Assembly (NCBI RefSeq): GCF_000828895.1
Contig: NZ_AP014568.1
Location: 347,699-411,698, forward strand
Length of the DNA: 64,000 bases
Direction of reading: 5' to 3'
From: Serpentinimonas raichei
Lineage (GTDB): Bacteria; Pseudomonadota; Gammaproteobacteria; Burkholderiales; Burkholderiaceae_C
Positions within the stretch are counted from its first letter, which is position 1. The number at the start of each line of letters is the position of its first letter. Shown piece after piece: positions 37,017 to 56,274 of the stretch. The translations under genes were made by a program, and so were the position numbers. The notes below the pieces were generated by a model. The model had not been told where the DNA came from. It ran no database searches and saw only the letters and a list, made by a program, of their open reading frames with translations.

Positions 37017-37077
37017 GCAGGCGGCTTGGGCGCGACAGCCCGCCCGCACGGCAAATTCCAAGCCATCGAAGCCGTTT

Positions 37078-37368
37078 CTATGCGTGAAGCGCCGAGAGCG
37101 CATCAGGGTTGGCTTCGACGATCTTTAGCAAGGCGCGCGCAGGTCCTGCTGGACGCACGCGATGTTGCTCCCAGTTCTGCAGGGTCTTGGGCTTGACGCC
37201 GATCAGGTGGGCGAAACGACTCTGCGACAGACCGGTGCGCTCACGGATCGCCTTGACATCGGGCTCAGGAAACGCCTGCACGCGAACGCCCAGCAGCTTC
37301 TCGCCGCGCATATGGCGCCCCATGTCGCGCACGCTGTCGAGCAACTCGTCGAACTGTTGGTCATTCAT
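37078..37368 (-). CDS. XRE-family antitoxin (HigA/NadS-like, TA pair 3)
   Basis: A 96-residue helix-turn-helix protein. The recognition region is RERTGLSQSRFAHLIGVKPK followed by TLQNWEQHRVRPAGPA, the typical form of NadS/HigA-2 antitoxins. It starts inside the 3' end of the toxin gene (8-base overlap), so the pair is toxin-first. It probably represses through the palindrome at the toxin start. Confidence 0.9.
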   Translation of the reverse strand: MNDQQFDELLDSVRDMGRHMRGEKLLGVRVQAFPEPDVKAIRERTGLSQSRFAHLIGVKPKTLQNWEQHRVRPAGPARALLKIVEANPDALSALHA

Positions 37369-37693
37369 CTGGTATCTCCGCTTGCATGATCTCGGCCAAC
37401 CGCCGCAGTTGAACGGGTGTCAGATTGGTGCTGACATTTTTCGCATAGGCATAGATCAAGTAGCACTGCTCCTTGCTCACCCAGTGGTAGTAGATGACCC
37501 GTGCCCCACTGCGCTTGCCCCTGCCAGGCAACGGAACACGCAACTTGCGCAGCCCCCTGCCGCCGGGAATCAAGTCGCCAGCGGCGGGATTTTCCAGCAA
37601 GGTGTTCTGCAGCGCGGCGATATCCTCATCCGCGAACAGTTCGGCTGCACAGCGGATGAAGATCGGAAGTTCCACAAAAACCATGACTTCCAT
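37361..37693 (-). CDS. RelE/HigB-like toxin (TA pair 3)
   Basis: A 110-residue RelE-superfamily toxin. The family core is LRKLRVPLPGRGKRSGARVIYY followed by YLIYAYAKN (residues about 48-88). The partner XRE antitoxin overlaps its end. The start is at 37693 or three codons later; the upstream palindrome touches the first start codon. mRNA cleavage is expected from family but not proven. Confidence 0.88.
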   Translation of the reverse strand: MEVMVFVELPIFIRCAAELFADEDIAALQNTLLENPAAGDLIPGGRGLRKLRVPLPGRGKRSGARVIYYHWVSKEQCYLIYAYAKNVSTNLTPVQLRRLAEIMQAEIPDE

Positions 37694-37713
37694 TATCCGC
37701 TAGAAGCGGATAA
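37693..37713. promoter_or_regulatory. Operator palindrome of TA pair 3
   Basis: TTATCCGC / GCGGATAA, a perfect 8-bp inverted repeat with a 5-base spacer, lies at the toxin start. A further half-site, TTATCCG, occurs at 37731-37737. Iterated half-sites fit cooperative binding of the XRE antitoxin. Confidence 0.7.
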
Positions 37714-37821
37714 CGGTGCAAGCCCAAGCCTTATCCGACGATGTATGAGCCTACACGCAAAACGTGGCCGGACCCCATTGTCGTTGCGCTATCATCCCCC
37801 AAGCCTTTCAACCACCGCACG

Positions 37822-38046
37822 ATGCGCCTTTCCGCCTTTGAACGCCAAACCCTGAAGCAGGCCGCTCTGAGCAGCTTTGGGCCCGGCGTCGTGTTGCGCC
37901 TGTTTGGCTCGCGGGTGGCCGACGGGCAGCGCGGTGGGGATATCGATCTGCTGGTTGAGACCCAACTGCTCGATCCGGCGCAAATCGCTCAGGCGCACAC
38001 CCGCTTCCTGGCGCGGGTGTATAGCCATTTGGGTGAGCAGATGTAG
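37822..38046 (+). pseudogene. MNT-type nucleotidyltransferase fragment
   Basis: A 74-codon frame from the ATG at 37822. It has the minimal nucleotidyltransferase signature LFGSRVADGQRGGDIDLLV, with the catalytic GS and DxD. The frame ends right after [12 protein letters not shown], where homologues normally continue with about 25-30 residues starting KxDVLxDY. The missing tail contains the third metal-binding Asp, so this copy should be inactive. It would have been a MntA-like antitoxin, but no HEPN toxin is present. An in-frame ATG at 37741 seems too early. Confidence 0.65.
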
Positions 38047-38174
38047 CCGCTGCGCGGATGGAACAGGGCAATCTCTCCAATGTGGAGTGGTTCCGGGGCA
38101 TTGGTGAGTACAAGATCGACTGGGGGCCGGGTTACCGCATCTACTTGGCCAAGGACGATGGCACTGACCCGTGA
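38037..38174 (+). pseudogene. RelE/HigB-like toxin remnant
   Basis: A short open stretch (ATG at 38058, stop at 38172-38174) encodes [12 protein letters not shown] and [16 protein letters not shown], the central core of RelE-type killer proteins. The N-terminal helices and the last 25 or so residues are missing. It abuts the truncated nucleotidyltransferase gene upstream and runs into the antitoxin start downstream. It is an internal fragment left by deletions on both sides, and no active toxin is expected. Confidence 0.65.
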
Positions 38175-38478
38175 TTTCAAAAAAACCGTGGCTGCCCGCG
38201 TGCAGAGCGATCCGGCGTTTGCCCAGGCCCTGCTGGACGAGGCGATCACCCTGCTCATCGACGGCGAGCCCGATAGCGCCAAACTCATCCTGCGCGATCT
38301 GGTGAACGCGACGGTAGGGTTCGAGTCGCTGGCCGAGGAAATTCACAAGCCGGCAAAAAGCCTGCACCGGATGCTGTCGGCCTCGGGCAATCCGACCATG
38401 AGCAACATTTCCGCGATCTTCGCCGCCATCAAGCGCGCGCTGAAGGTTGAGGTTCGCACCACCGTCGTGCTGGCATAG
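38158..38478 (+). CDS. Antitoxin-type DNA-binding protein (orphan)
   Basis: A 106-residue protein starting [11 protein letters not shown], the classic opening of antitoxins paired with HigB-like killer proteins. A degenerate helix-turn-helix follows ([17 protein letters not shown], then [17 protein letters not shown]). It looks complete. Its toxin upstream is reduced to a fragment that overlaps the ATG, so this is an antitoxin without a working cognate toxin. It could still act on related toxins nearby. Confidence 0.8.
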
Positions 38479-38504
38479 CTGCCACCACGCCACATCTGAA
38501 AAAA

Positions 38505-38540
38505 CCCCGCCCCTCTTGCGAAGGACGGGGCTTAAATTTT
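38505..38540 (+). terminator. Terminator after the orphan antitoxin
   Basis: CCCCG (38505-38509) pairs with CGGGG (38526-38530), with partial pairing inside, preceded by six A and followed by TTAAATTTT. It is a plausible rho-independent terminator 27 bases past the antitoxin stop. Confidence 0.6.
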
Positions 38541-38622
38541 ATCAAGCACCTACCCGAAGGCAGGGGCTTGGGGCAGAAGAAAACCGTGGTCTGACCGCGA
38601 TTTCCCCCTCCCCTTTGTGATT

Positions 38623-39654
38623 TCAGCGCCGAATCAAGAGCATTACGTCTTGTTGCATCCCGCCGCCCTCACTGGCGTGATAAAGGATAAAAAACATCCT
38701 TTGCCCGTCTATAACGAGTTCGTAGATTTGAGCCCGGTCTACTGTATTTTCGGCAGGCAACAAGCTAAGTCCAGCCGGGCTCAGCATGGCGTCCACCTGA
38801 ACCCTAGTGAGTGCGTCTGCTGGAATAGGCTGGAGGGCGTCGGCATCATTGCCAGAAACCGTCGATCCGTCGTTGTTGAAGCGGATCCATCCTGTGTGCC
38901 CGCCAACTCCGGCAATTTCACTATGGAAGCAATCGATCGCATCAAAAGTTTGGCCTGCAATGTTGTTGGGGCCATCAAGGGCTTCAGTCAGAGTGACCCG
39001 GCGCAGGTTGTGCGACAGCAAAACCACTGTACTTTGTGAAGTTGTTGGACCGGGAAGGCAGGCCACGGCTACATTGCCCGTGTCGTCGAGTAACACGGAG
39101 ACGGGGGTGTTGTTTACTGTGGCGCGGGTTTGCCAAGTGTTGGTGCCAATCCCGGTGACGTTAACTACCACGTTACTGCCTAGGAAGTTGGATAGGCCAA
39201 AAGCCACTTGAGCTTGGGTTGTGGTTGCCGCCACGTTGGTCTGCACGGTTTCGGTTTGGCCATCATGACGTATCACGCTAACTGCCATGTTACCGCTGGT
39301 GGCAATGCTCGGTGTGGATCCTGCTGGTGCTGCAGGCAGGGCCCAGTTGAATTGCCCAGTTAGTTCCGCAGGCGTGGTGGGTGCTGTGGCGGCGATAGGG
39401 GGGCTGGTAGGAGGCGTGGCAGGAGGCGTGGTAGGAGGCGTGGTAGGAGGCGTGGTAGGAGGCGTGGCAGGAGGCGTGGCAGGAGGCGTGGCAGGAGGCG
39501 TGGTAGGAGGCGTGGTAGGAGGCGTGGTAGGAGGCGTGGTAGGAGGCGTGGTAGGAGGCAGCGTGCCCGTTGCAACCACGTCATCGCCGCCACCCAAGCA
39601 GCCCGCAAGCGAAGCCGCTGCGGCTGCGATGGCCAGAAATTTTAGAACTCTCAT
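38623..39654 (-). CDS. Lipoprotein with Thr-Pro repeat, unknown function
   Basis: A 343-residue predicted lipoprotein. The signal peptide ends in the lipobox SLAGC, followed by LGGGDD. Residues about 33-86 are repeats of TPPT/TPPA encoded by a 12-bp tandem repeat, a likely wall- or envelope-spanning stalk. The remaining 250 residues are Thr/Asn/Val-rich, probably beta-structured, with two cysteines (VACLPG and IDCFHS) and no recognised domain. The ATG at 39654 directly precedes the signal peptide. Base composition is lower in GC than in neighbouring genes, which suggests acquisition. Function unknown. Confidence 0.75.
   Translation of the reverse strand: MRVLKFLAIAAAAASLAGCLGGGDDVVATGTLPPTTPPTTPPTTPPTTPPTTPPATPPATPPATPPTTPPTTPPTTPPATPPTSPPIAATAPTTPAELTGQFNWALPAAPAGSTPSIATSGNMAVSVIRHDGQTETVQTNVAATTTQAQVAFGLSNFLGSNVVVNVTGIGTNTWQTRATVNNTPVSVLLDDTGNVAVACLPGPTTSQSTVVLLSHNLRRVTLTEALDGPNNIAGQTFDAIDCFHSEIAGVGGHTGWIRFNNDGSTVSGNDADALQPIPADALTRVQVDAMLSPAGLSLLPAENTVDRAQIYELVIDGQRMFFILYHASEGGGMQQDVMLLIRR
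39410..39553 (-). repeat. 12-bp tandem repeat, 12 units, in the lipoprotein gene
   Basis: Twelve perfect-length units of ggaggcgtggta or ggaggcgtggca cover 144 bases without interruption. Only the eleventh base varies, switching the encoded Thr to Ala. Units keep frame, so slippage would change stalk length without breaking the protein. Confidence 0.95.
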
Positions 39655-40025
39655 GCAAAATACCCCTGTTGAAGTGGAATAAGACCGGGTTGCTTGGCTC
39701 AGTTCGCTGGCGCGCACACGCACTGGCACGCAGTGCATGAGCCGCACAGACAAAAAGCCGTCGTGTGAAGTTGCAAAAAAGGTGGATCGCAGGCACCGAT
39801 CAGGCGCGGCCGGGTTTCCTCCCCCTAACTCTCATGAATCCTGCGCGACACCCCGGACGATGGAAGACACTGAGGGGGTGTGCGGGCGAGCTTGGGTAGA
39901 GGTCGGTCAAACCTTTGATGGCACATTGACCGCGATTCCTAACTTGACCCGCCGCCGACCACTCGTACCCTGGATTGCCTGCGGGCGCTGCCCTGACCCA
40001 GTCGGATCAGTGCATGCCTGACAGC
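39655..40025. other. Intergenic stretch upstream of lipoprotein and IS element
   Basis: No supported gene. It must hold the lipoprotein promoter; near the ATG a CAGGGG element could serve as ribosome binding site. A small inverted repeat, GCACTG / CAGTGC, lies near 39720-39735. The right part appears to be noncoding target DNA of the IS110-family insertion. A 94-codon plus-strand frame (39737-40021) has no recognisable features. Confidence 0.5.
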
Positions 40026-41451
40026 CCACATTAAATGGAGCCGCCGGGCTTGCCCGGCAGGCCGTTGGTCTGCGGCACCCATGCTTGCCCTGCACGCTTG
40101 TGATTATCGTTCAAGCTGCTAGGAGAGATGCAATGGATTTGACCCCGATGCACAAGCGCGTGCTCGCGCTCGATGTTCACCAAGCCAAGATCACCGCGTG
40201 TGCCGTCGTCGAGCACGATGACGGCCGCGTGCAGGTGACCAAGCGCGACTTTGGTGCCTTCAAGCGTGATCGGCGCGCCTTGGCGCAGTGGGCGCTGCAA
40301 ATCGCACCCGAGGTAGTGGTCATGGAGAGCACGGGCGTGTACTGGAAGAGCCCGTTTGCGGCACTGGAGGCGGTGGGCATCATCGCTTGGGTGGTCAACG
40401 CAAGGCACGTCAAGGCCGTGCCCGGTCGCAAGACCGACATGGCCGATGCGCAGTGGCTGGCCACGCTGGCGCGTGCGGGGCTGCTGCGCGCCTCGTTCAT
40501 CCCTCCCCAGCTCATGCGCCAACTGCGCTTGGTTGCACGCCAGCGGCAAAAGCTGGTGGGCATGTGCAGCGCCGAGAAGAACCGGCTGCACAAGGTGCTG
40601 GTGGATGCGGGCATTCGCCTCAACGTGCTGGTCTCCGACATCCACGGCAGCAGTGCGCGTGCGATGATCAAGGCGCTGATTGTCGGCCAGCCCATGCACG
40701 AGGTGCTCGATCACAAGGGGCGGCTGCGTGCCAGCCGAGACGAGTTGTTCGAGGCCCTATGCACCGAGCAGTTCAGCGCCGCGCACCGCTTCGTAGCCGA
40801 TGAGATCATGCAGCACATCGAGTCTCTGGAGCGGCGCATAGCGGGCTTTGATCGGTACTTGCTCGAAGGTCTGCGGCCCTGGCGGGCGCAACTGACGCTG
40901 CTGCAAACCATTCCCGGCATCGACGAGCAGGGCGCGGCCATGCTGCTGGTAGAGATTGGCGCAGACATGAGCGTCTTTGGCAGCGCTGAGCGCCTGGCTA
41001 GCTGGGTCGGCATTTGCCCGGGCAACAACGAGAGCGCGGGCAAGCGCAAGTGCGGGCGCATCCGCAAGGGCAACGCTTGGGTGCGAAGGCTGTTGTGCGA
41101 GTTTTCCCAAGCTGCGGCTCGAACGCGCTGTGCGCTCAAGGCCAAGTTCGATGCGCTGACTATCCGCAAGGGGCGCAAGAAGTCCATCATCGCGCTGGCG
41201 CACAAGATGCTGCGCACCATCTACGCCATGCTCACCCATGGCACCCACTACCGGGACAAGGAGGTTGATTATGAGGCGCTCAACGTCGAGCGCAACGCCC
41301 CACGCTGGATGAAGATGCTGCTCAAACACGGCTTCATCACCAATCCCGCAGCCGCAGCCGCCTGAGGCTGACCTACCCGCTGATCTCGCGGCCCCGGCCA
41401 GCCTGAGGTCAGGATGAGTCTCGGCTGCTGGTGGGGTGTCTTCCACATTAA
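40026..41451 (+). mobile_element. IS110-family insertion sequence (approximate ends)
   Basis: The element contains one DEDD transposase gene and noncoding ends. The 9-bp sequence CCACATTAA occurs at 40026-40034 and again at 41443-41451, which I use as provisional boundaries (about 1.42 kb). The left end has a GC-rich inverted repeat (GCCGGGC / GCCCGGC, 40043-40058). The right end has CTGACCT / AGGTCAG arms (41368-41374 and 41406-41412). IS110 elements lack classical terminal repeats, so true ends need comparison with other copies. Structured ends may encode a bridge RNA. Confidence 0.6.
40133..41365 (+). CDS. IS110-family DEDD transposase
   Basis: A 410-residue recombinase that appears intact. 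The N-terminal RuvC-like DEDD domain shows Asp14 in LALDVHQAKI, Glu in VVMESTGVYW, and the paired Asp in GRKTDMADAQWL. The C-terminal Tnp domain shows LLQTIPGIDEQGAAMLLVEIG-type helix-hairpin-helix (residues about 261-281) and the conserved serine region NNESAGKRKCGRIRKG. An AGGAGAG ribosome binding site precedes the ATG at 40133. It probably needs a guide (bridge) RNA encoded in a noncoding end, as shown for IS621. Confidence 0.93.
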   Translation: MDLTPMHKRVLALDVHQAKITACAVVEHDDGRVQVTKRDFGAFKRDRRALAQWALQIAPEVVVMESTGVYWKSPFAALEAVGIIAWVVNARHVKAVPGRKTDMADAQWLATLARAGLLRASFIPPQLMRQLRLVARQRQKLVGMCSAEKNRLHKVLVDAGIRLNVLVSDIHGSSARAMIKALIVGQPMHEVLDHKGRLRASRDELFEALCTEQFSAAHRFVADEIMQHIESLERRIAGFDRYLLEGLRPWRAQLTLLQTIPGIDEQGAAMLLVEIGADMSVFGSAERLASWVGICPGNNESAGKRKCGRIRKGNAWVRRLLCEFSQAAARTRCALKAKFDALTIRKGRKKSIIALAHKMLRTIYAMLTHGTHYRDKEVDYEALNVERNAPRWMKMLLKHGFITNPAAAAA

Positions 41452-41575
41452 GCTCGGTCATCGCCCTGTTATTGTAACGGGAATTTTCTGGCTTGAAGCC
41501 GCCTTGCGCTTTTTTTTGAGGAAAATGGTGTCAGGCCACGGTTTCGGCATACAAACTTTTCCCAAGCGGCATCGA
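41366..41575. other. Noncoding stretch right of the transposase
   Basis: The first 80 bases probably belong to the IS right end and contain a 7-bp stem with a long GC-rich interior. The rest is A/T-richer sequence with a run of eight T at about 41511-41518, possibly a leftover terminator. No gene is seen. Confidence 0.4.
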
Positions 41576-41908
41576 TCAGAGGGAGGCCACCCGGGCTGTC
41601 ATGGGTTTGTGAGCAGGGCGGTCGTAGCGCGGGATGTGGGGCAGCACATCGGCTAGGCGCTCGCGCACCACTTGCGCATCGTAGTGCGCCTGCAAGGCCA
41701 GCCAGCCCTCGGCATCGACGCCAAAGAAAGCACCCAGCCGTGCAGCGGTATCCGCGCTGATGGCCCGGTGGCCTTGCACGATTTCATTGATGCGCCGACG
41801 CGGCACATCAATCGCCTTGGCCAACGCGTACTGGCTAATCCCCAAGGGTTCGAGCCAGTCTTTGAGCAGGATTTCACCCGGATGGATGAGGGGTACTTCG
41901 CGTGTCAT
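41576..41908 (-). CDS. higA: HigA-family antitoxin (XRE type)
   Basis: A 110-residue antitoxin. The family opening is LIHPGEILLKDWLEPLGIS, then the helix-turn-helix (QYALAKAIDVPRRRINEIV) and AARLGAFFGVDAEGWLALQ. A GGAGGA ribosome binding site precedes the ATG at 41908, so the upstream in-frame ATG at 41923 is less likely. The cognate HigB gene directly upstream is truncated, so HigA appears to be an orphan. Confidence 0.9.
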   Translation of the reverse strand: MTREVPLIHPGEILLKDWLEPLGISQYALAKAIDVPRRRINEIVQGHRAISADTAARLGAFFGVDAEGWLALQAHYDAQVVRERLADVLPHIPRYDRPAHKPMTARVASL

Positions 41909-41922
41909 GGTGTGTTCCTCCA

Positions 41923-42060
41923 TCAGTGGTAATCCACGATTTCAACCTGCCTAGCATGCCCTGCATCCCACACAAAGCACACCCGCCACTGGTCATTGAT
42001 GCGGATGCTGTGTTGCCCCGCCCGATCTCCCGAAAGCGCTTCCTTCGCGGCGTGTGAGCC
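41923..42060 (-). pseudogene. higB: HigB toxin C-terminal remnant
   Basis: The 45 codons before the higA start read GDRAGQHSIRINDQWRVC and end VEIVDYH, the standard C-terminal half of HigB. Upstream the frame meets a TGA at 42061-42063 with no start codon, and the N-terminal half (normally about 45 residues) is gone. The break lies close to the repeated gspE 3' segment, so the insertion or deletion that produced the repeat probably removed it. Confidence 0.75.
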
Positions 42061-42094
42061 TCAGCGCTTGGACGCGGCAGGGTGGGTGTTCCCG

Positions 42095-42161
42095 CCCCCC
42101 TCACTCCCGCGTCACGCGCAGCAGTTCTTCGGGGCTGGTGAGGCCCTGGGCGAGCAGGCGG
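42095..42161. repeat. Direct repeat copy A (gspE 3'-end duplicate)
   Basis: These 67 bases match 42767-42833 with a single mismatch (42152 g versus 42824 c). Read on the minus strand they encode [18 protein letters not shown] plus stop, identical to the C-terminus of GspE. The sequence inward of copy A keeps only weak protein-level similarity to GspE (about to 42195, KGLRSLSSAFR). Confidence 0.92.
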
Positions 42162-42221
42162 AATGCGCTCGATAGCGATCTGAGGCCCTTGCTCTTGGCC
42201 CTGGCGACCGACCAGCCGCCG

Positions 42222-42500
42222 TCATGGGCGGCGCTGGTACACCTCGCGCCTGTTACCGATACGAATGACCAAAATTCGCAGGGCATCGTCTTCGATCAGG
42301 CTTATGACTCGATAGTCGCCGACGCGGTATTTCCAAAACGCACCCAAGCTCGAGCCTTTGAGCGGTTCTCCGATGCTGCGGGGATCATCCAGCAGCGCCA
42401 CGCGCTCACGCAAAAATGCGGTGATGCGTCTGGCAACTGGTTTGTCGAGCTTGGACAAGTCATTTTCAGCGGCACCATCAATCTTAATCAGATAGGCCAA
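42222..42500 (-). CDS. relE: RelE-family toxin (relBE-type pair)
   Basis: A 92-residue RelE toxin: IKIDGAAENDLSKLDKPVARRI helix region (residues 5-26), then GEPLKGSSLGAFWKYRVGDYR and ILVIRIGNRREVY. These are the RelE core elements including conserved Arg and Tyr positions. It overlaps the antitoxin gene by 17 bases. The pair is bracketed by the two gspE-end repeats. Confidence 0.92.
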   Translation of the reverse strand: MAYLIKIDGAAENDLSKLDKPVARRITAFLRERVALLDDPRSIGEPLKGSSLGAFWKYRVGDYRVISLIEDDALRILVIRIGNRREVYQRRP

Positions 42501-42708
42501 GGCGGCGCTCCACTTCTTCGATTGAGTGCGCCTCGCTGCGTCCGGCGCGGGCCTGTAGCAGCCTGTGCTCAGCCAAGTACAAATCCTCTAGATCGTCCAA
42601 GTGCTCGATGATCGCCTCACGTGCATAGTAGGTCTTGGTCCGTCCGGTGGCGTGCGCTAGCGCGCTCAGCCGGCTTTCGATTTGCTCGGGTAGTCGTATG
42701 GCAAGCAT
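42484..42708 (-). CDS. relB: RelB-family ribbon-helix-helix antitoxin
   Basis: A 74-residue antitoxin with an N-terminal ribbon-helix-helix (MLAIRLPEQIESRLSALA, then GRTKTYYAREAIIEHLDDL) and a C-terminal toxin-binding part ending VERRLGLSD. It is antitoxin-first and overlaps relE. A palindromic A/T-rich site containing a TATAAT -10 lies upstream, fitting autoregulation. Confidence 0.9.
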   Translation of the reverse strand: MLAIRLPEQIESRLSALAHATGRTKTYYAREAIIEHLDDLEDLYLAEHRLLQARAGRSEAHSIEEVERRLGLSD

Positions 42709-42735
42709 GGCAGTCCTTTGGGCGTTGACTGCCTT

Positions 42736-42752
42736 GATTATACGTGTATATC
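42736..42752 (-). promoter_or_regulatory. relBE promoter/operator
   Basis: The imperfect palindrome GATATACACGTATAATC (minus strand) contains a perfect TATAAT. It lies 28 bases upstream of the relB ATG and just inside repeat copy B. It is the probable RelB operator. The -35 is weak. Confidence 0.6.
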
Positions 42753-42766
42753 AAAGATCCCGTACC

Positions 42767-42833
42767 CCCCCCTCACTCCCGCGTCACGCGCAGCAGTTCT
42801 TCGGGGCTGGTGAGGCCCTGGGCCAGCAGGCGG
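42767..42833. repeat. Direct repeat copy B (true gspE 3' end)
   Basis: The partner of the repeat at 42095-42161, 672 bases away. This copy forms the genuine 3' end of the intact gspE gene and includes its stop codon and six bases beyond. Confidence 0.92.
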
Positions 42834-44218
42834 GCGCCGTCGTCGCGCAGCAGGGTCATGCCTTGGGCTTGGGCGGCGGCGCGCAGTGCGGCTTCGGGGG
42901 CGCGCTGGTGCACCAGCGATCGCAGGGCGTCGTCGGCCAGCAGCAGCTCGAAAATGCCGCTGCGCCCGGCGTAGCCGGTGTGGCCGCAGTGGCTGCAGCC
43001 CACGGGGTGCAGGTGGCCGTCAGGGCCGGGCTGGCGGCAGTGGGGGCAGAGTTTGCGCAGCAGCCGCTGCGCCAGCACGCCCAGCAGCGAGCTGCTGAGC
43101 AAAAAGGGCTCGACACCCATGTCGGTCAGGCGTGTGACGGCGCTGGCGGCGTCGTTGGTGTGCAGGGTGGCCAGCACCAGGTGGCCGGTGAGCGAGGCCT
43201 GGATGGCGATTTGCGCGGTCTCGAAGTCGCGGATTTCGCCGATCATGATCACGTCCGGGTCTTGGCGCAAGATGGCGCGCAGGGCGCGGGCGAAGCTGAG
43301 CTCGATTTTGGGGTTGACCTGGGTTTGCCCGATGCCGCTGAGCTCGTACTCGATCGGGTCTTCCACGGTCATGATGTTGAGCCGCAGCGCGTCCAGCCGC
43401 TGCAAGGCGGCGTAGAGGGTGGTGGTCTTGCCGCTGCCGGTGGGGCCGGTGACGAGCACCAGGCCGTGCGGTTGCGCGATCAGGTGCTCGAAGCGCTCAA
43501 GCGTGCTGCCCTGCATCCCGACGGCGGGCAGGGTGAGCTTTTGGCCCGATTTGTCGAGCAGGCGCAGCACGGCGCGCTCGCCCTGGGCGCTGGGCAGGGT
43601 GGAGACGCGCACGTCGATGGCGCGCTGCCCCAGCCGCAGGCTGATGCGGCCGTCTTGGGGCAGGCGTTTTTCGGCGATGTCGAGCTCGGCCATGATTTTT
43701 AGGCGCGAGATCAGGGCGGCGTGCAGGGCGCGGTTGGGTTGCACCACTTCGCGCAAGATGCCGTCGATGCGAAAGCGCACGCTGGAGTGGCGCTCGTAGG
43801 GCTCGATGTGGATGTCGCTGGCGCCATCGCGGGCGGCTTGCGTGAGCAGCGCGTTGAGCAGGCGGATGATGGGGGCGTCGTCGGCGGCTTCGAGCAGGTC
43901 TTCGATGGCGGGCAGCTCTTGCATCAGGCGCCCGAGGTCGGCTTCGCTCTCGACTTCGCTGACCACGGCGGCGGCGCTGTCGGCGTCGCGCTCGGCGTAG
44001 GCGGCGCTGATGTGCGCGCTCAAAGCGCTGGCTTCGCTGGCCTGCCAGGCGCAGGGGCCGTGGCGGCGCAGCACCTCGTTGATGGCTTGCAGTTGGGCGC
44101 GGGCGGCTGCGGGCTCGGTGCAGTGGCCGATGAGCAGCGTCTGCTGGCCCGATTCGTCGAGCAGCAGCAGCTTGTGCTGGCGCGCAAAGGCGTAGGGCAG
44201 CGGGTGGCGGCGGCTCAT
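42773..44218 (-). CDS. gspE: Type II secretion ATPase GspE
   Basis: A 481-residue assembly ATPase for the pseudopilus. Motifs: Walker [16 protein letters not shown], Asp box (TVEDPIEY), Walker B region ([14 protein letters not shown]), His box ([12 protein letters not shown]), and a tetracysteine zinc site (CPHC...CSHC). The N-terminal domain is shorter than average, as in many Burkholderiales. The ATG overlaps the gspD stop by 4 bases. Its 3' end is duplicated downstream around a relBE module. Confidence 0.96.
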
Positions 44219-46452
44219 GGGGTGGATTGCGGGGCGGGTGCCGTGGGGGTGGGTTGGGGCAGCAAGCGCAAGGGCAGTTGCGGCTGGCTCAAGTCGAGCG
44301 CTGGCAGCGCCGGGGCCTGGTTGATGGAATGCACCGCGCTGGGGGTGGGCTGCTGCTGCTGTTGGGCGGCGCGGATCAGGTCGTAGCGGTCTTGTGACAG
44401 CGCGTCGCTGGCGCGTTGGTCGCGCAAAATCACGGGTCGCAAAAACACCATCAGGTTGGTTTTGTTGCGGTTGCGCCGTTCGCTGCGAAACAGGCTGCCC
44501 AACAGCGGCAGCTGGCTCAGGCCGGGGACTTGGTCTTGGGCGGCGCCGTATTCGTCTTGCAGCAGGCCGCCGAGCACGATCACGGCCCCGTCATCGACCA
44601 GCACGTTGGACTCGATCGAGCGCGTGTTGGTGATGGGGCCGGTGGGCGAACCGATGGAGGCCGGCACCACCGAACTCACTTCTTGGAAGATCGACAGCCG
44701 CACGGTGCCGTTTTCGCTGATCTGCGGCCGCACCCGCAGCGTGAGGCCCACATCGCGCCGCTCGATGGTCTGAAAGGGGTTGACGGCGCCACCTTGGCCG
44801 CCGACGTTGGTGAAGCTGCCGGTGATGAAGGGCACGTTTTGCCCGATCACGATGCGCGCTTCCTCGTTGTCGAGCGTGAGCAGGTTGGGGGTGGACAAGA
44901 TATTGGCCTGCCCGCTTTGCTCCAGCAGCCGCACCAAGGCCGAGAGCACGTAGCTGCCGTTGATGCGCTGCGCTAGCCCCAAGTTGAGGCCGGTGGAGGG
45001 CATTTGTTGAGCACCCGTGGCCAGGTTGAGCAGATTGGCTCCCCGTTCACCGAAGTTGGTGCCCAAAAAGCCGATGGTGCCAGCGCCCGAGCGGCCGATC
45101 AACTGCTGCCACTGGATGCCGAATTCGCTCGCTTGGTCGGCGCTGACTTCGGCGATCACGCTCTCGACGAAGACCTGCGCACGCCGGGTGTCGAGCCGCT
45201 CGATGAGGGCGCGCAACTGCCGAAACACCGGCTCGGGGGCGCTGATGATGAGCGAGTTGGTGGCGGCATCGGCCTGGATTTGGCCGCCGGTGCTGCTGGG
45301 GGCAGGGGCTGCTCCAGCGCCCGCTGCGCCGCCGCTGGCACCCACGGCGGCCCCGGCAGCGGTGCGACGCAGCGCTCCCAAGGCCCCTGCGGGTGCGCCA
45401 GCCGCCGGGGCGGTGGCTGCGCCGGTGGCGGGGCTGGTGTCGCCGCCTAGGCCGGAGTCGGCAGCCAGTGCGGCGCGCAGCGTGGTGGCGAGCTCGACGG
45501 CGTTGGCGTTGCGCAAGTGCACCACGTGGATGTTGCCTTGTGCGCCGCCGCTGGGGGCGCGGTCCAGTTGCGCCACCAGCGAGCGCACCAGCGCCACCCG
45601 GGCCGGGTTGGCGGCGCGCACGATGATCGAGTTGCTGCGCGGCTCGGGCAGCAGCACGGTGCGAAAACCCGCAGCAGCGGTGGCGGGCTGGCCAGCGGCG
45701 GCGGGAGCGGCGGCATCGCCATCGAGCAGGCGCTGCAGCACCGGAATCAGCTCACCCGCCAGCGCGTGCTGGAGCCCAATCACCTCGACCCCGGTGGCGT
45801 TGGCCACATCAAAGGCGGCAATGATTTGGGCGATGCGGCGCAGGTTGTCGGCGTAGTCGGTGATGATCAGGCTGTTTTGGCCCGCATTGACGTTGATCGG
45901 GTTGTGCGCGCTCACCAGCGGGCGCAGGATGGGCACCAGGTGGTTGGCGTTTTCGTGCGTGAGGCTGAAGATCTGCGTCACGATCTGCTGCCCACGCGGC
46001 ATTTGGGCTTCATCGAGCACCGCGCCGCTTTGCAGCCGGGCGTCGGCCTCGGGCAGCACCTTGAGCAGGCCTTGGCTTTCCACGATGGCAAAGCCGCGCA
46101 GGCGCAGCGCCGAACTGAACAGTTGCAGCGCCTGCGCCGGCGTCACGGGGCGCTCGGTTTGCAGGTTGAGCGTGCCGCTGATGCGCGGGTCCACCACCAC
46201 GTGGCGCCCGACCAGCACCCCCATGGCGCGCGCCACGGCGTCGATTTCGGCCTGCACGAAGTTGAGCGTGATGGGCGCACCGGGGCGCACGGCGGGCGTG
46301 AGCGCTAGGGTGGGTGTGCTGGCTGCCGTGGCTGGGGCAGGGGCCGGGTTGTTGGCCAAGGCAGCGCCGGTTGTGGCGGCCAACAGGGCCGCGCCACTCA
46401 GGTGGAGCCAGGTGCGGAGCAGGGTGCGGGGCAAGTGGGGCATGGGGGTCAT
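44215..46452 (-). CDS. gspD: Type II secretion outer-membrane secretin GspD
   Basis: A 745-residue secretin that forms the outer-membrane pore. A signal peptide ([18 protein letters not shown]) is followed by N0-N3 domains ([31 protein letters not shown]) and an Ala/Gly-rich insert. The secretin core then shows [35 protein letters not shown] and [18 protein letters not shown]. The C-terminal tail is Pro/Gln-rich. The ATG at 46452 overlaps the gspN stop. No pilotin is nearby. Confidence 0.96.
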
Positions 46453-47339
46453 CCGATTCTGATGTGGGCGCGCAGGCGGCCGTCGCGCTGGCCCAGCATG
46501 TTGAGCAGGTTCGACAGGGCGCCCAGATGGGCTTCGTCGGACTCGGCCAGCCCACGAAAATGCACGCGGCCACTGACGATCTGCCCTTGGCCGCTGAGCT
46601 GAAATGGCCCGGCCAGGGTGCTGAGGCGGATTTGGGTGGGCTGCTCGGAAGGGGCGGAGGCAGCGAGCGGGCTGCCCTCGATGTGCAACTGGTAGCTGCC
46701 CAGCGGGCGCAGGGTGGAGAGCGCGGTGGCCAGCCCGTGCGCTTGCAGCACCAGGCTGCCGTGCAGTTGGGCGCGGCCCAGGTGCAGGTGCAAGCGCAGC
46801 CCTTCGCTGTGTAGGCCGATCTGGCCTTGCAGATGGAGCGAATTCCAGGGGCTGCCTAGGCCGCTGAGCAATTCGGCCGGCCAGGCGCTTTGGTGTGCGT
46901 CGAGGTGCAGGGTGGCGCTTTGCCAGCCTAGGCTCAAGACCCCGGCCAGCGGCTGCGGGGTGCAGCAAGGCGCGCGGATTTGCCAAGCCAGCGCCGGCCC
47001 GCCCTGCCAGTGCGGCCGCAGCCGCCACTGCAGCCCTTGCGCCAAGGCCGTGCGGTCGTGGCTGCCGGCACCGGCGCTCAGCAGCAGGTCGGAGCGGCCA
47101 TTCCAGACGCTGCCCTGTGCATTGGGCAGGTTGATGCGCCCGGCGCTGGCGCTGCTCACGGCCTGCGCCAGCCACTGCGCCGGGGCAAACAGCGCCAGGC
47201 CCAGCAGGAGGCCCAGCAGCAGCCCTATGAGCGCCGCCAGTGCGGCCCAAGTGCCGGCCCCCTTGCCTTGGGCGTGCTTGGGGGGCGCTTTAAACGCCGC
47301 CGCCAGCCGTGGCAGGGTTGCGGATGGGTTGGGCTTCAT
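46449..47339 (-). CDS. gspN: Type II secretion protein GspN
   Basis: A 296-residue single-pass protein: a cytoplasmic N-terminus, a transmembrane helix (LAALIGLLLGLLLGLALF) and a periplasmic domain with GspN features (NAQGSVWNGRSDLLL). GspN is an accessory inner-membrane component. It overlaps gspM and gspD by 4 bases each. Confidence 0.88.
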   Translation of the reverse strand: MKPNPSATLPRLAAAFKAPPKHAQGKGAGTWAALAALIGLLLGLLLGLALFAPAQWLAQAVSSASAGRINLPNAQGSVWNGRSDLLLSAGAGSHDRTALAQGLQWRLRPHWQGGPALAWQIRAPCCTPQPLAGVLSLGWQSATLHLDAHQSAWPAELLSGLGSPWNSLHLQGQIGLHSEGLRLHLHLGRAQLHGSLVLQAHGLATALSTLRPLGSYQLHIEGSPLAASAPSEQPTQIRLSTLAGPFQLSGQGQIVSGRVHFRGLAESDEAHLGALSNLLNMLGQRDGRLRAHIRIG

Positions 47340-47872
47340 GGTGCCGCCAGCCCAGCGCCGCCAAACCACACGGTGCCGCTCCACTGCGCCGCAGGGGAGG
47401 CTCCGGCGGGGGTGGCGGGGGCGGCATCGGCGCGCTGCAAATCGGCGCGCAGTGGCAGCAAGCGGGTGTTGAGGCGCACCGCTTGCAGCCAATCGGCCAG
47501 CGCCTGTGGACTGGCTTGGCTAAAGGCGACCGCCAGCGCATCGGGCTGCGCGCTGATGCTCGCCTGTGGCCCGAGGTGGCTCAGGCTCAGGGCTTGCAGC
47601 GCTTGCAAGGTGGCTTGGCGGCTGGGCGCGGCCCCGGGCGGGGCTTGCTGCAAGGCCTGTGCCTGCGCTGCCAGTGCCTGCATCTGTTGCCACTGCGCCA
47701 GTGCAGCGGCGCGCTGCTCGGGCGCCTGTTGCAAGGTGCGCAGCGCCGGATGGATGGCCCACTGCCACAACACAAAAGCCAGCAGCACGGCCGCACCCAA
47801 GATGGCGGCGCGGCGCTCGCGCTGGGCCAAGGCGCGCCAGCGGGCTTGCAGCACGGCCAGGGCGGCCTTCAT
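47336..47872 (-). CDS. gspM: Type II secretion protein GspM
   Basis: A 178-residue inner-membrane platform protein with one N-terminal helix (AILGAAVLLAFVLWQWAIHP) and an Ala/Gln-rich periplasmic coiled region. It partners GspL. Conservation is low, and the call relies on topology and position between gspL and gspN, with ATGA overlaps on both sides. Confidence 0.85.
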   Translation of the reverse strand: MKAALAVLQARWRALAQRERRAAILGAAVLLAFVLWQWAIHPALRTLQQAPEQRAAALAQWQQMQALAAQAQALQQAPPGAAPSRQATLQALQALSLSHLGPQASISAQPDALAVAFSQASPQALADWLQAVRLNTRLLPLRADLQRADAAPATPAGASPAAQWSGTVWFGGAGLAAP

Positions 47873-49101
47873 CGGGCGCTGGCCCAGCGCAGGGTGCTGC
47901 GCTCGGAGTTTTGGGGCTGAAATTGCCAGCCGCTGGGGGCCAGCGCCGCGCCCAGCTCCTGCTGCGCCGCCGCGCTCAAGGGGGCGTGAGCGAGTTCGGC
48001 GCTGCCGCCTTCAAAACGCAACTGGCGCAACTCCAAGGGGCTGCGGGAATGGGCGCGCCCCATTTGCTCCAGCAGCGGCTCCAGGTCGCTAGGGCTGAGT
48101 TCGCTGCGCGCTTGGCGCAGGCGGTCGAGCTCGCGCTGCATTTGCAGCGGCGCATCGAGCACCAGTTGCACCTGGGGGAAACTTTGCTGCAAGGTGGCAT
48201 GGCTGAGCTGGCGCAACTGCACGATTTCTTGGCGCGCCTGCCAGGCGTTCAGGTTCAGGCCCAGCAACTGCAGCGCCACCAAGGCCCCCAAGCCCCAGCG
48301 CAGCGGCCGCCAAGCTGGGCTGCCCCAGTGCTGGCGCACCTGCTCCAGTGCCAACCGCCAGCGCGCGCTGCGTGCTTGCAAGTGCAAATCGAACTGCGCC
48401 AAATCCCAGCCGCTGGCCAGCGCCTGCTGCCAAGGGTGGGCACCGCTGCGGGTTTGCCAAGCCAGCTCGGGCAAGTGCTGCTCGGCCAGGCCAACCAGCG
48501 CCGGGCTGGCCCAGGCCGTGCTGCCGGCCTCGAGTGCGCCCACGGCTTGCAAGCTGCTGTGCAGCAAGGCGCGGTCGGCGGCGCTGGCTTGGGGCTGCAG
48601 CGGCCAGCACAGCGCACCGTGGGCCGCACTGGCCAGCAGCTCAGGGGCCTCGCTGCTGCCGCAAACCCAGACCCAAGGCGGGTGCTGCGGCGCGCAAGCG
48701 GGCAGCACCGCAGCCAGCGGGTGCTCAATCGACTGCAAATAGGCCACGGCCCGATGCAGCGGCTCGCGCTGGCAGCAAGCCACCCAAGTGTCGGCGGCGC
48801 GGCCGGGCTGAAAACCTGGGGTCAGGGCGTAGTGCAAATCGGGCAAATCGCTCAGCAGCCGCTCTTCGAGCAGGCCATCGAGCAAGGCGCGCAACTTGTG
48901 CGCAGGTGCCTTGGGCAGGCTCAATTGCAACCAGCTCAAAGCCTGCGCCGGCCACACCAGTACCGTGGCGGGCTGGCGCGCAATCGCCTCGGCGCTGTCG
49001 CAGCCCTGCCCGGTGAGGGTTGCGCCCTGCAGCGTCACCCAGTCCCACAGCGCAGTGGGCGAGTCGCAAGCTAGGGGTTGGCGGGGTGAGATCAGCAGCA
49101 C
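47869..49101 (-). CDS. gspL: Type II secretion protein GspL
   Basis: A 410-residue platform protein: a cytoplasmic actin-like domain that binds GspE (LPKAPAHKLRALLDGLLEERL; the region AWPAQALSWLQLSLP is typical), a single transmembrane helix (WGLGALVALQLLGLNLNAW) and a ferredoxin-like periplasmic domain. No ATG is available; the GTG at 49101 is chosen and a TTG some 37 bases upstream is possible. It overlaps gspM by 4 bases. Confidence 0.88.
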   Translation of the reverse strand: MLLISPRQPLACDSPTALWDWVTLQGATLTGQGCDSAEAIARQPATVLVWPAQALSWLQLSLPKAPAHKLRALLDGLLEERLLSDLPDLHYALTPGFQPGRAADTWVACCQREPLHRAVAYLQSIEHPLAAVLPACAPQHPPWVWVCGSSEAPELLASAAHGALCWPLQPQASAADRALLHSSLQAVGALEAGSTAWASPALVGLAEQHLPELAWQTRSGAHPWQQALASGWDLAQFDLHLQARSARWRLALEQVRQHWGSPAWRPLRWGLGALVALQLLGLNLNAWQARQEIVQLRQLSHATLQQSFPQVQLVLDAPLQMQRELDRLRQARSELSPSDLEPLLEQMGRAHSRSPLELRQLRFEGGSAELAHAPLSAAAQQELGAALAPSGWQFQPQNSERSTLRWASAR

Positions 49102-49151
49102 GGTAGGGGGGGTGGGCGCAAGCGGTAAAAAAAGCAATCGATGATGATACT

Positions 49152-50174
49152 TCAGGCTCGTGGCGCAACCGGCGCGCCGCCGCGTTGGCGCCAGATGGTG
49201 CGCACGTTGATGCCCTCGCGCAACACCAGCGAGCGCTCTTGCACCGTCAACTCGTCGAGCCGCAACTGCCCGTGCAGCAGAAAATAGCGGCTGCTCAAGG
49301 TGAAGCGTTCGGCGTTGATGTGCGTGCGGGCGCTGCCGAAAGCAGGGGCGGCTTGCTCCAGGCTGGTGAAGTGGGAGCGCTCGCGCTGCTGCACCAGGCG
49401 CTGCGCCTGTGCCCGATCCAGCCCCGGCACGCTGGCGTAGAGCGCCAGTTCGCTGCTGGTGTTGAGGTTGAGCGCGGTGCGCTCGGGCAGCCAGGTGGCG
49501 TGGTCGGCCATGCGCTGCAAGGTGGCGGGCGAGAGCCCGAGCCACTGCAATTGTTCAAAATGCTGCGGCAACAAGGCGGCACCCTGGCCGGCTTGCAGCG
49601 TGCGCAGCAGGCGCTCGGAAAACTGCAGCAGATCTTCCTGCGGCAGGCCGAGGGCCTGAAACAGTTTGGCAAAGCTGGCCATGCCGGTGCCAGAGAGCCG
49701 CAGGTTCTGGCCGCTGCCCTCGACCAGGTTGCGCAGGTTCATCCGCGCCTGCATGTCGTGGATGCGGCCCGATAAAAAAGACTCGGTCAGCAGGGCTTCG
49801 GGGTTTTGCTCTTGCGCGGCCAAAAAGGTGTTGAGGCGCGACTCTTGCAGCGGCACCGACCAAGGCTCGGCCAGATGATCGATCTGGCTGGCGCGGGCGT
49901 CTTCGCGCAAGATCAGGCGCGCCCAGTCCAGCGCCCCGGTGAGCAGCCAGGCCGATTGCACGCGCTGGCGCTCGCTTTGCTCGATCTGCCAGGCTTGCCA
50001 CTGCTGCCAGTAGCCCGATGCGCTCAGGGTGGCGGCCAAGGCCGCCGTGAGCAGCGCCAGCAGCAGGGCGGCGCCGCGCTGCTTGTGCGGACCGCTGGGT
50101 GGGGTGCGGCTGCCGTGGCGGCTGGTGAGTGGGCTGTGGCCAGTGCCCGTGCCGGGGTCCAAGAGGGGCTTCAT
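49152..50174 (-). CDS. gspK: Type II secretion minor pseudopilin GspK
   Basis: A 340-residue pseudopilin tip protein. The prepilin leader ends RG-AALLLALLTAALAATL, with the hydrophobic helix at about residues 34-52. The large C-terminal domain has the GspK-type helical inserts (LNLNTSSELALYASVPGL). GspK caps the pseudopilus with I and J. The ATG at 50174 overlaps the gspJ stop. Confidence 0.92.
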   Translation of the reverse strand: MKPLLDPGTGTGHSPLTSRHGSRTPPSGPHKQRGAALLLALLTAALAATLSASGYWQQWQAWQIEQSERQRVQSAWLLTGALDWARLILREDARASQIDHLAEPWSVPLQESRLNTFLAAQEQNPEALLTESFLSGRIHDMQARMNLRNLVEGSGQNLRLSGTGMASFAKLFQALGLPQEDLLQFSERLLRTLQAGQGAALLPQHFEQLQWLGLSPATLQRMADHATWLPERTALNLNTSSELALYASVPGLDRAQAQRLVQQRERSHFTSLEQAAPAFGSARTHINAERFTLSSRYFLLHGQLRLDELTVQERSLVLREGINVRTIWRQRGGAPVAPRA

Positions 50175-50902
50175 CCGCTTTTGCCTCCGCCCACGCGCGG
50201 GTGGATCCAATCGTGGGTGATGGGGCCGCCCGGCACCGCTTGCCCCTCAAGCGGTGTGAGCAGCAGGCGCACGCCCTCGGGTGCGCGCAGGGCTGCCGGG
50301 TCGGTCGGGGCGGCTTGGTTGGGTGCGGTTTGTGCGGGTGTGGTCGCAGGCTGCCACTGGCCGCCTTGGTTGAGCAGCACCTGCCACGAGCGCAGCGGCA
50401 GCAGCGCCAGCGCCTGCTGTGGCAGGTCTGCATTGGGCTCGCGCTGCCACAGTTGGGCCGCCTGCCAGGCGCGCAGCAAATCGTGCTGCTGCGTCACGGG
50501 CGGCGAAACCCAGCGCGACCAGTGCGCTGGGGCCTCGGCGCTGGCAGGGCTCAAGGCCCAGGCCACCACCACCAGTCCCGGCTCTTGGTCCGGCGGCGGG
50601 TGCGGGTCGGTGCGCACCAGGCGCAGCAGTTGGCCGTCGAAGCTCAGCGCGGGCACCACGGCGTTTTCGTGCAGGTGGTTGAGGTCGGTCGACCACTGCG
50701 CCAGCGCGGTTTGCCACTGCAGCCAGCCTTGGGTGTGGCTGCGGGTGTGCGACTCGGTGCGGCTCATGCCGTCGAGGCCGCGCCAGCTAAACAGCGCCAG
50801 CGCCGACATGATGGTGAGCGCGACCAGCAGCTCGATCAGCGTTAGGCCGCGAGTGCGCGGACGCGGCCATGGCTTGGGGGCGAGAGCGCGCAGCGGCTGC
50901 AT
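50171..50902 (-). CDS. gspJ: Type II secretion minor pseudopilin GspJ
   Basis: A 243-residue pseudopilin with prepilin motif RG-LTLIELLVALTIMSAL at about residues 18-35, including the conserved Glu at +5. The body (SWRGLDGMSRTE) is typical of GspJ. Its start directly abuts the gspI stop. Confidence 0.93.
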   Translation of the reverse strand: MQPLRALAPKPWPRPRTRGLTLIELLVALTIMSALALFSWRGLDGMSRTESHTRSHTQGWLQWQTALAQWSTDLNHLHENAVVPALSFDGQLLRLVRTDPHPPPDQEPGLVVVAWALSPASAEAPAHWSRWVSPPVTQQHDLLRAWQAAQLWQREPNADLPQQALALLPLRSWQVLLNQGGQWQPATTPAQTAPNQAAPTDPAALRAPEGVRLLLTPLEGQAVPGGPITHDWIHPRVGGGKSG

Positions 50903-51391
50903 TCAGTGCCGCCCGATCACGGTCAACAAGGAGAGCAACTGCACCGGCGCGGCTTCGGGCGTGCTGCTGGGGCCCTGCACCTCGGCGCGCACGCGCCTGA
51001 AGCTCGGGTTCAGGGTGGGGCTGACGTCGAGCGTGACCTCAAACACGCGACCGCCTTGCTCGCAAGTCTGGCTGCTGCGCCCCACGGCGGGGAACTGGGG
51101 TTGCAGGCGCAGGTTCACGAGCGCGTTGTCGGCGCACAACTGGGCCAACCACTGCTGCGACTGGCGCTCGGCCAGCCGGGTCAGGGCGGCGCTGGCTTGC
51201 AGGCCAGCCGTCAGGCTGATGGCCACGATGGCGAGTGCTACCAGCACCTCGATCAGCGTGAGGCCAAGCTGGCGTGGGGCTGGGCGCGGGCATCGGCCGT
51301 GGCGACTTGGTTTATCCCGAAAAGCGGCAACCGCAGGCGCAGGCGCTTGGGCTGTTGGGTGTGCTGGGGCAGGCATCGGGCCAATCCTCAA
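50903..51391 (-). CDS. gspI: Type II secretion minor pseudopilin GspI
   Basis: A 162-residue pseudopilin with prepilin motif LG-LTLIEVLVALAIVAISL. The leader is unusually long (about 43 residues) and Pro/Ala-rich. The TTG at 51391 overlaps the gspH stop (TTGA), matching the coupling seen across the operon; the ATG at 51376 is the alternative. Confidence 0.9.
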   Translation of the reverse strand: MRIGPMPAPAHPTAQAPAPAVAAFRDKPSRHGRCPRPAPRQLGLTLIEVLVALAIVAISLTAGLQASAALTRLAERQSQQWLAQLCADNALVNLRLQPQFPAVGRSSQTCEQGGRVFEVTLDVSPTLNPSFRRVRAEVQGPSSTPEAAPVQLLSLLTVIGRH

Positions 51392-51918
51392 GGTTGACCT
51401 TGGCCGGAGGGCAGGATGGCAAAGGGCAGCGCGCCATTGCTGCCGATGCGGATTTCGTGCTCGCCCAAGCGCAAGCTCAGGGTTTGGGCGGCGATGATGG
51501 GCTCCGGCCCCAGCCGCAGCACCTGGGCTTGCGCGGGCCGCAGCACCTGGGCCTGCACGCCGGGGTGGAGCCAGTTTTTGGGGCCTGCCAAGGAAGCACC
51601 CTGAGCGATTTGGCCCCTCTGCACCGCTGGCGCACCGGCTGTAGCCGCGCCAACAAACTCAAAGCCGCTGGCCGTGCTTTGCCAGTGCAGCGCGCTGCCG
51701 CTGGCGCGCGACAGGGCGCGCCCGGCCTCTAGCCAAGCCACCAGGCGCTGCGCCTCGCGTTCGAGCTGCTGGCTCGGGCCGTCGCGCAAGGACACGCTCA
51801 CGGCCCCCGCAGCCAGTGCGACGATGAACAGCACCACCAGCAGCTCCAGCAGGGTGAAGCCGCGCGGGCTGAAGGGGCGAGGGCGGTGAGGCACAAGGCG
51901 GGCTCTGACGCTGTGCAA
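51388..51918 (-). CDS. gspH: Type II secretion minor pseudopilin GspH
   Basis: A 176-residue pseudopilin with prepilin motif RG-FTLLELLVVLFIVALAAG at about residues 19-37. The C-terminal half is variable and partly repetitive (AQVLRPAQAQVLR). It lies between gspG and gspI. Confidence 0.92.
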   Translation of the reverse strand: MHSVRARLVPHRPRPFSPRGFTLLELLVVLFIVALAAGAVSVSLRDGPSQQLEREAQRLVAWLEAGRALSRASGSALHWQSTASGFEFVGAATAGAPAVQRGQIAQGASLAGPKNWLHPGVQAQVLRPAQAQVLRLGPEPIIAAQTLSLRLGEHEIRIGSNGALPFAILPSGQGQP

Positions 51919-51954
51919 CGGGGCGGGCCGCTGGGTGGCTGGGGTGGGCAGGCG

Positions 51955-52425
51955 CTACTGCCAGCTGCCGATGTCGGCGTTGATGCCTTCGCCACCGGGC
52001 TGGCCGTCGGCCCCGAGCGAGAGCACGTCCACCGGCCCATGCACGCCCGGGTTGAGGTAGCGGTAGGGGCGGCCCCAGGGGTCGGTGGGCAAGCGCTCGA
52101 TGTAGGGGCGCCAGTTGGGCGGGGCGGGGGCTGTGGTGGGGCGTTGCACCAGCGCCTCCAGGCCCTGCTCGGTGCTGGGAAAGGCTTGGTTATCGAGCCG
52201 GTACAGGCGCAGGGCTTGCATCAGGTTGTTGACGTCGGTGCGGGCGGCGGTGACGCGCGCGTCGTCGGCCCGATCGAGCACGTTGGGCACGATCAGCGCC
52301 GCCAGCACGCCGATGATGACCAAAATCACCATCAGCTCGATCAAAGTAAAGCCACGGCTGCGGTGCGAACGCCGGTGGGCGCTGGCGCGTGCGTGCAGAT
52401 CAGTCAGGCGCAGTGAGGTGTGCAA
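51955..52425 (-). CDS. gspG: Type II secretion major pseudopilin GspG
   Basis: A 156-residue major pseudopilin. The prepilin motif is RG-FTLIELMVILVIIGVLAAL; the C-terminal half has the calcium-site region (PTDPWGRPYRYLNPG). I chose the TTG at 52425 because a GGGAG ribosome binding site precedes it by 7 bases and the leader is then about 24 residues. ATGs at 52458 and 52479 would crowd the divergent gspC start. Confidence 0.93.
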   Translation of the reverse strand: MHTSLRLTDLHARASAHRRSHRSRGFTLIELMVILVIIGVLAALIVPNVLDRADDARVTAARTDVNNLMQALRLYRLDNQAFPSTEQGLEALVQRPTTAPAPPNWRPYIERLPTDPWGRPYRYLNPGVHGPVDVLSLGADGQPGGEGINADIGSWQ

Positions 52426-52477
52426 TCGAAGGCTCCCAAAGCTCGAGGTCAAGATCATGGCATCATAATCGGTGCCC
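52426..52477. promoter_or_regulatory. Divergent gspG/gspC promoter region
   Basis: CATAAT (52464-52469, plus strand) and TATGAT (52462-52467, minus strand) are overlapping -10-like hexamers facing opposite ways. No strong -35 is seen for either. The overlap implies the two promoters compete. Confidence 0.45.
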
Positions 52478-53017: not shown

Positions 53018-53055
53018 ACCGCAACCCTCTGGGGCATCCAGCAGCAGCCCTGTAG

Positions 53056-54276: not shown

Positions 54277-54519
54277 GGGCTCATTTTAGGGGCGGACCGA
54301 GGTGGACGGATCGGATTGCATCAGCAGAAAAGCTAGCAATTGGGCCGCTGAAAGCAAGAAATGGCGGTTATGCAACCCCCTATGCAAGCTCCAAAGCCGC
54401 AGACTTGGTTTGCAGCAGGTCGCGGCAGCGTCACGAAAATGGTGTAGAAAGTGGGGCGCGCCTGTTTGGCGTGCCATGGCCGGTTCTCAATTTTCACCAC
54501 AACCCTCCGGAGCCCCCGC

Positions 54520-56220: not shown

Positions 56221-56274
56221 GGGTGCGCATAGGGGGCATCGAGGGGCTGTGACCGCAGCTTGTCGGGTCGGCGC

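Follow-up and report, generated by a model that had tools for sequence, protein, structure and literature searches.

How a toxin–antitoxin (TA) operon with only short flanks came to lie between two copies of the end of a secretion gene is the question raised by a locus of Serpentinimonas raichei, which we analysed within a window of 64,000 nucleotides (the whole stretch of DNA under study). An earlier note on this DNA had described two 67-bp copies of the gspE 3' end that differ at one position, one being the true C-terminus of gspE and the other a detached duplicate that still codes, and an intact relBE-type pair with its operator as the sole content of the interval. Alignment of the copies (66/67 bases identical), reading of the gspE frame and the 605-bp content of the interval agreed with this description. 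The features of the bracketed unit are the following.

42095..42161, minus strand: repeat copy A, a detached duplicate of the gspE 3' end, 66/67 identical to copy B
42162..42766, minus strand: putatively inserted cargo of 605 bp, composed of relB and relE together with about 58 bp of upstream and 60 bp of downstream sequence
42222..42500, minus strand: relE toxin gene, 92 aa, RelE/ParE family (PF05016, 57.7 bits; TIGR02385, 28.4 bits with a cut-off of 27.9)
42484..42708, minus strand: relB antitoxin gene, 74 aa (NF048017 RelB, 109 bits with a cut-off of 50; TraY and DUF6290 in Pfam)
42734..42754, no strand assigned: imperfect palindrome, read from the sequence, on the upstream side of relB; a candidate operator
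42767..42833, minus strand: repeat copy B, the gspE 3' end (last 61 bases with the stop codon) and 6 bases downstream
42773..44218, minus strand: gspE, type II secretion ATPase, 481 aa, the last operon gene here

The two copies are spaced by 672 bases, and each comprises the last 61 bases of gspE including the stop codon together with 6 bases of the G run past it. Copy A still reads 22 residues of a GspE-type C-terminus, and the sole mismatch (42152 in copy A, 42824 in copy B) is a leucine codon, CTC in A and CTG in B, which is synonymous in the gspE frame. A whole-genome search (E up to 0.001) found the repeat in only two places in the 2,574,013-bp genome, and the other GspE matches listed (2 of 10) were 48% and 53% identical and located elsewhere, both of which speak against the earlier suggestion of a second gspE-like gene as the source of copy A. 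Viral contigs contained no sequence identical to a 37-base segment of the repeat; phages gave two weak partial matches, covering at most 37% of the repeat, and plasmids gave one partial match, in an Aeromonas record, covering 64% of it.

The cargo has the composition of a type II TA system, with a RelE/ParE toxin, a RelB-type antitoxin, overlapping genes and the antitoxin first, and the palindrome at 42734-42754 fits a candidate operator. No sigma-70-like promoter was found in 42040-42900. The cargo contained no integrase ORF, no exact inverted repeat of at least 8 bp was found within 80 bp of its ends, and its borders did not carry the IS ends that mark IS-borne or composite transposon cargo. 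Four Phage_integrase matches were detected in the genome, at 0.62, 1.43, 2.12 and 2.17 Mb, far from the repeat locus at 0.39 Mb. Among the plasmid hits, the most similar annotated pair was the RelBE-type pair of Acidithiobacillus caldus plasmid pTC-F14, whose proteins are 73-74% identical; it is plasmid-borne, with a repA-type helicase gene on one side and traI on the other, and unlike the window it has no gspE copy.

We consider that the locus probably arose by insertion with long target duplication at the gspE 3' end, with the TA pair as cargo. A minimal 605-bp relBE operon would have entered gspE at its 3' end, the final 67 bp of this target would have been duplicated in the insertion, and gspE would have kept an intact end (copy B) with the old end displaced as copy A. 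This event may have been of the same kind as in the other bracketed pairs described below, and it would have needed no dedicated recombinase, proceeding by staggered-break repair or by crossover of a small circle or fragment with the same stretch. Break repair or homology-driven entry, and not one integrase, is suggested by the bare cargo, the repeats of 45 to 214 bp, the unrelated targets, the lack of common cargo ends by eye and the lack of a recombinase nearby. Once in place, the pair would persist, since a cell that recombined the repeats would lose the antitoxin gene and suffer from the toxin, which is the longer-lived of the two products; this suggests that such duplications could last, the loss of the insert costing the cell its antitoxin. 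Against the addiction part of the explanation stands a 2009 review (PMC2654758), according to which deletions were not prevented by the two chromosomal TA systems that had been put to the test. What we observed was the geometry, the minimal cargo, the lack of a third copy in the genome, comparable pairs elsewhere and one single-copy empty site, so that insertion at gspE itself appears partly supported and has parallels in other genomes, one of which offers an empty site.

The type II secretion operon is read leftward and ends with gspE; gspF lies upstream of this gene, at about 53.1-54.3 kb, and apart from D, E and F the gene letters were assigned by eye. By eye, a gspC-like ORF at 52472-53017 lies on the strand opposite to the other secretion operon genes. 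To the downstream side of the operon belong three further features.

41923..42043, minus strand: higB remnant, about the last 39 codons and the stop codon
41576..41923, minus strand: higA antitoxin gene (TIGR02607)
39825..41452, plus strand: IS110-family element, ends approximate, outside the bracketed unit

Read on the minus strand, the order is gspE with copy B, palindrome, relB, relE, 60 bp, copy A, 51 bp, higB remnant, higA and IS110. Homology of the higB remnant to other higBA loci ends near 42043, and 51 bp of no assigned origin (42044-42094) separate it from copy A. From its sequence, the downstream side of copy A is rearranged too, as seen in the 51-bp stretch and the truncated higB. 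The genome carries six near-identical copies of the IS110-family element, and the one here ends about 640 bp from copy A. Beside it, a lipoprotein-like ORF (38623-39753) carries a long Pro/Thr/Ala repeat tract.

The congeners G001 and G002 (about 2.6 and 2.5 Mb) both lack, at this place, the surrounding 19-kb block (37022-56288), which carries the TA pairs, IS110, the type II secretion operon and a PhoD-like gene (identified by eye). In G001, almost nothing separates the nucleotidyltransferase gene that ends near 36387 from the gene at 56292, and in G002 about 1.8 kb, with a gene resembling a chemotaxis receptor, replaces the block. At other places in the congeners there are weaker matches to parts of the block's left half, for example a 68% relBE-like match in G001. 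Neither congener has an orthologous gspE, the best matches being 52% and 48% identical, and with the block also missing here neither offers an empty site for comparison at gspE itself.

Further gspE loci were compared as a set of 112 gspE-family rows, three of them from the window; one of the rows (L073) had no usable downstream sequence and four (L029-L032) were distant family members. A second copy of the gene's own tail was found in none of the 109 rows other than the window's own, over downstream stretches of up to 5 kb and often of at most 1.5 kb, and the best forward match to a gspE tail among them was 35/61 bases. A full gspE-like gene at the position of copy A was not seen in the relatives either, none of the close ones compared having this gspE. 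No relBE was found at the gspE loci scanned except the window's own, and among the matches listed no relBE match stood side by side with a gspE-tail match. The gspE end is variable among relatives: gspF follows within 200 bp in 74/112 rows, lies beyond a gap of more than 400 bp in 6, and is missing from the downstream stretch in 32/112, the three window rows included. By eye, the six gspE-gspF gaps hold an AbrB-like/Doc-like pair, outer-membrane-like ORFs, a Uma2-like ORF and others, and given this varied content we rejected the gspE end as a hotspot for TA pairs only. The AbrB-like antitoxin and Doc-like toxin lie between gspE and gspF in Curvibacter lanceolatus (L041, 6442-7064).

For a wider comparison, toxin loci were gathered by PF05016, RelE and DNA searches in up to 399 genomes of the family, and one uniform script scored a locus as bracketed when a direct repeat of at least 40 bp and at least 88% identity, with copies within 1.6 kb, lay around the toxin. 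The samples were top-scoring matches and not random ones. The toxin was located in 151 of 179 distinct loci; the other 28, in which our home-made profile missed the toxin, were left out. Bracketing was found in 9/151 ParE/RelE loci (8/150 without the window), compared with 1/110 acetyltransferase (GNAT) loci and 0/208 chromosome chunks of gspE loci. Without the window, one-sided Fisher tests gave 0.051 against GNAT, 0.0008 against the chunks and 0.0006 against the pooled controls, so that the excess over the matched accessory-gene control (GNAT) alone is borderline. Since none of the 208 control chunks had a repeat of at least 40 bp bracketing its middle, chance is an implausible source of the repeat at gspE. 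At lower thresholds the excess was weak, with 6/76 TA loci against 8/212 chunks at 28 bp, and 15/174 TA loci against 9/208 chunks and 3/90 GNAT loci at 24 bp; the 40-bp threshold was chosen after these looks. The results are indications, not proof, that short repeats are common background and that the long ones alone stand out.

Several loci stood at the margin of the survey. The GNAT locus counted as bracketed (L343) has a series of repeats of about 107-117 bp that is probably a cassette array, and at another GNAT locus (L374) the gene does not lie between the copies of a 254-bp repeat. Left uncounted among the toxin loci were L267, whose 80-bp repeats do not surround the toxin, L199 (25 bp), and L275 and L285, whose repeats of 41-42 bp lie more than 1.6 kb apart. 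L153 and L196 are one locus, a tandem TA duplication with repeated, partly decayed copies of the pair. L217, in which the profile did not locate the toxin, stands outside the 151 and was added from a first look as the tenth case. Apart from the window, the bracketed TA loci are the following.

L217, 1144-1832: RelBE-type pair, cargo 547 bp, with an entire tRNA-Leu(CAA) on one side and a 71-bp duplicate of the tRNA's 3' part on the other, 97%
L279: parDE flanked by two 214-bp copies, 97% identical, of a TauC-like permease gene's 3' end
L305: ankyrin-like protein (by eye), 60 bp, 90%
L287: tyrosine recombinase C-terminus, 89% identical
L288: 110 bp, 94%, including the last codons of a DsbG-like gene
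L169: parE C-terminus, 47 bp, 91%
L320: 187 bp, 99%, from the 5' end of a regulator gene
L228: 214 bp, 99.5%, beside mqsA and an apparent mqsR remnant
L427: 45 bp, identical, intergenic

In 7 of these 10 cases (nine from the survey and L217) the repeat is or includes a gene 3' end, namely that of gspE, tRNA-Leu, the permease, the ankyrin-like protein, the recombinase, the DsbG-like gene and parE. At L305 the copy behind the pair still ends in nearly the same residues, and the bracketed toxin is the second toxin of the stretch, not the one for which the stretch was fetched. L169 may be an old tandem TA array. The mqsA gene and apparent mqsR remnant by the repeat of L228 resemble the higA gene and higB remnant by copy A. 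The repeat length was 67 bp at gspE and 45 to 214 bp in the nine other loci; long direct repeats of variable length around the cargo, the hallmark of insertion with long target duplication, were found. When seven bracketed pairs were compared, with repeats of 67 to 214 bp and unrelated targets, no inverted repeat of at least 8 bp was detected near the cargo ends and no common ends were seen by eye. Neither an integrase in the element nor an att core common to several copies, by which an integrative element or CIME is recognised, was found, and the L217 cargo likewise had no integrase.

An empty site was sought for L279 in seven genomes of its genus, its own (G397) included. In G276 we obtained two matches overlapping by about 211 bases, one covering the left flank and the repeat and the other the repeat and the right flank; positions 970-1642 and 2454-3063 of L279 align to 1406-2121 and 1911-2523 of L361 from this genome. 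The left flank, one repeat copy and the right flank are continuous in G276, and the cargo has no match, so that a relative with a single-copy empty site and both flanks exists for L279. G416 has one copy at the gene end, with the left flank not conserved and the cargo without match, G415 matched the left side only, and 3/7 genomes gave no match. The two copies of L279 are 97% alike, compared with 77 and 79% to G276 and 86 and 87% to G416; being more alike than either is to these relatives, both descend from the resident gene. A relative that had lost the pair by exact recombination between the repeats would show such an empty site as well.

The earlier note had proposed that DNA entered at the 3' end of gspE and duplicated its coding end, in the manner of a mini-element using att sites. 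The geometry of that proposal held, with the 109 single-tail gspE rows and the single-copy empty site of L279 in a congener in its favour; the att/integrase part was not supported, no integrase nearby, inverted ends or common cargo ends having been found. A remnant of a site-specific integrative element, in which the 67-bp repeats would be attL and attR and the integrase would have been lost or supplied in trans by a foreign element, is in our estimation unlikely. Gene 3' ends are classical att targets, and the RelBE-type pair at tRNA-Leu(CAA) in L217 shows the pattern that an integrase leaves. The definition of CIMEs, which have lost their integration and transfer genes and kept attL and attR, also counts in its favour as worded in PMC5704250. 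However, no integrase was found in the cargo or near it, repeat lengths and targets vary among the pairs, the cargo ends are unlike by eye, the repeat of L320 duplicates a 5' end, and the viral and phage searches described above gave nothing beyond partial matches.

One-sided homologous recombination (homology-facilitated illegitimate recombination) with a strain carrying relBE behind gspE seems slightly less probable again. The donor DNA would have crossed over within gspE and joined illegitimately in the recipient's tail, so that the recipient's own final 67 bp would survive as copy A. Such recombination is known from transformation studies (references in PMC3784515), and it would account for a repeat that ends just past the stop codon and has an arbitrary inner end, as well as for a synonymous mismatch of the sort expected between two working alleles. 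Yet it requires a donor that already had the pair there, which shifts the first insertion without explaining it, and the surveyed gspE loci and listed matches supplied no such arrangement. Tandem duplication of a unit of gspE tail and relBE, followed by loss of one relBE copy, is very improbable: the L153/L196 locus shows that tandem TA duplication occurs in the family, but no relBE remnant was seen beyond copy A, where there are only the 51 bp of other sequence and the higB fragment. Insertion with long target duplication thus remains our preferred reading at gspE. The wider proposition, that type II TA pairs are mobile as bare operons by long target duplication and survive preferentially at gene 3' ends, and that their addiction blocks recombination between the repeats, is put forward only tentatively and is more doubtful than the insertion at gspE.

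If that proposition were true, bare-operon insertion would be a general route of TA pairs into chromosomes, and the scars suggest one way in which the pairs enter while sparing the target gene. A 2020 review calls the integration mechanism of TA systems unelucidated (PMC7167474), and a recognisable scar, consisting of a bare TA operon, long copies of a gene end and a one-copy empty site, makes TA integration testable by genome comparison. In plants, transposed genes flanked by target repeats have been ascribed to circle excision and insertion (PMC2869330). Cis-mobilizable and tRNA-targeting integrative elements duplicate a gene 3' end around their cargo, as was seen here, and L217 uses tRNA-Leu; the cargo of the window differs in being about 0.6 kb, without an integrase, and no constant att core was found between cases. 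The element at icd in Escherichia coli, which we take to be the e14 prophage, integrates site-specifically, whereas at gspE only relBE lies between the copies. At icd the duplicated gene end remains as a pseudogene fragment, the 163-bp icd' (PMC6379469), which is like copy A.

The closest likeness is to certain restriction-modification genes, which are described as inserting with long, variable target duplications of about 100 bp (PMC3874152, also PMC1643837, PMC3031569). Insertion with long target duplication as reported there (Nobusato et al. 2000) likewise involves an addictive cargo and variable repeats of about 100 bp, and the repeat is single in a related genome, as at L279. The cargo is restriction-modification in that case and a type II TA pair here, and the hosts are Helicobacter there and relatives of Serpentinimonas here; with RelBE and not restriction-modification genes as cargo, the gspE locus is classed as a variant of that insertion type. 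The literature within reach of our search, which took in few subscription papers, contained no account of TA pairs as the cargo of an insertion with long target duplication. It is the TA cargo that is new, insertion of this type being already known for restriction-modification genes, and the scar ties TA pairs to restriction-modification genes of the same pattern.
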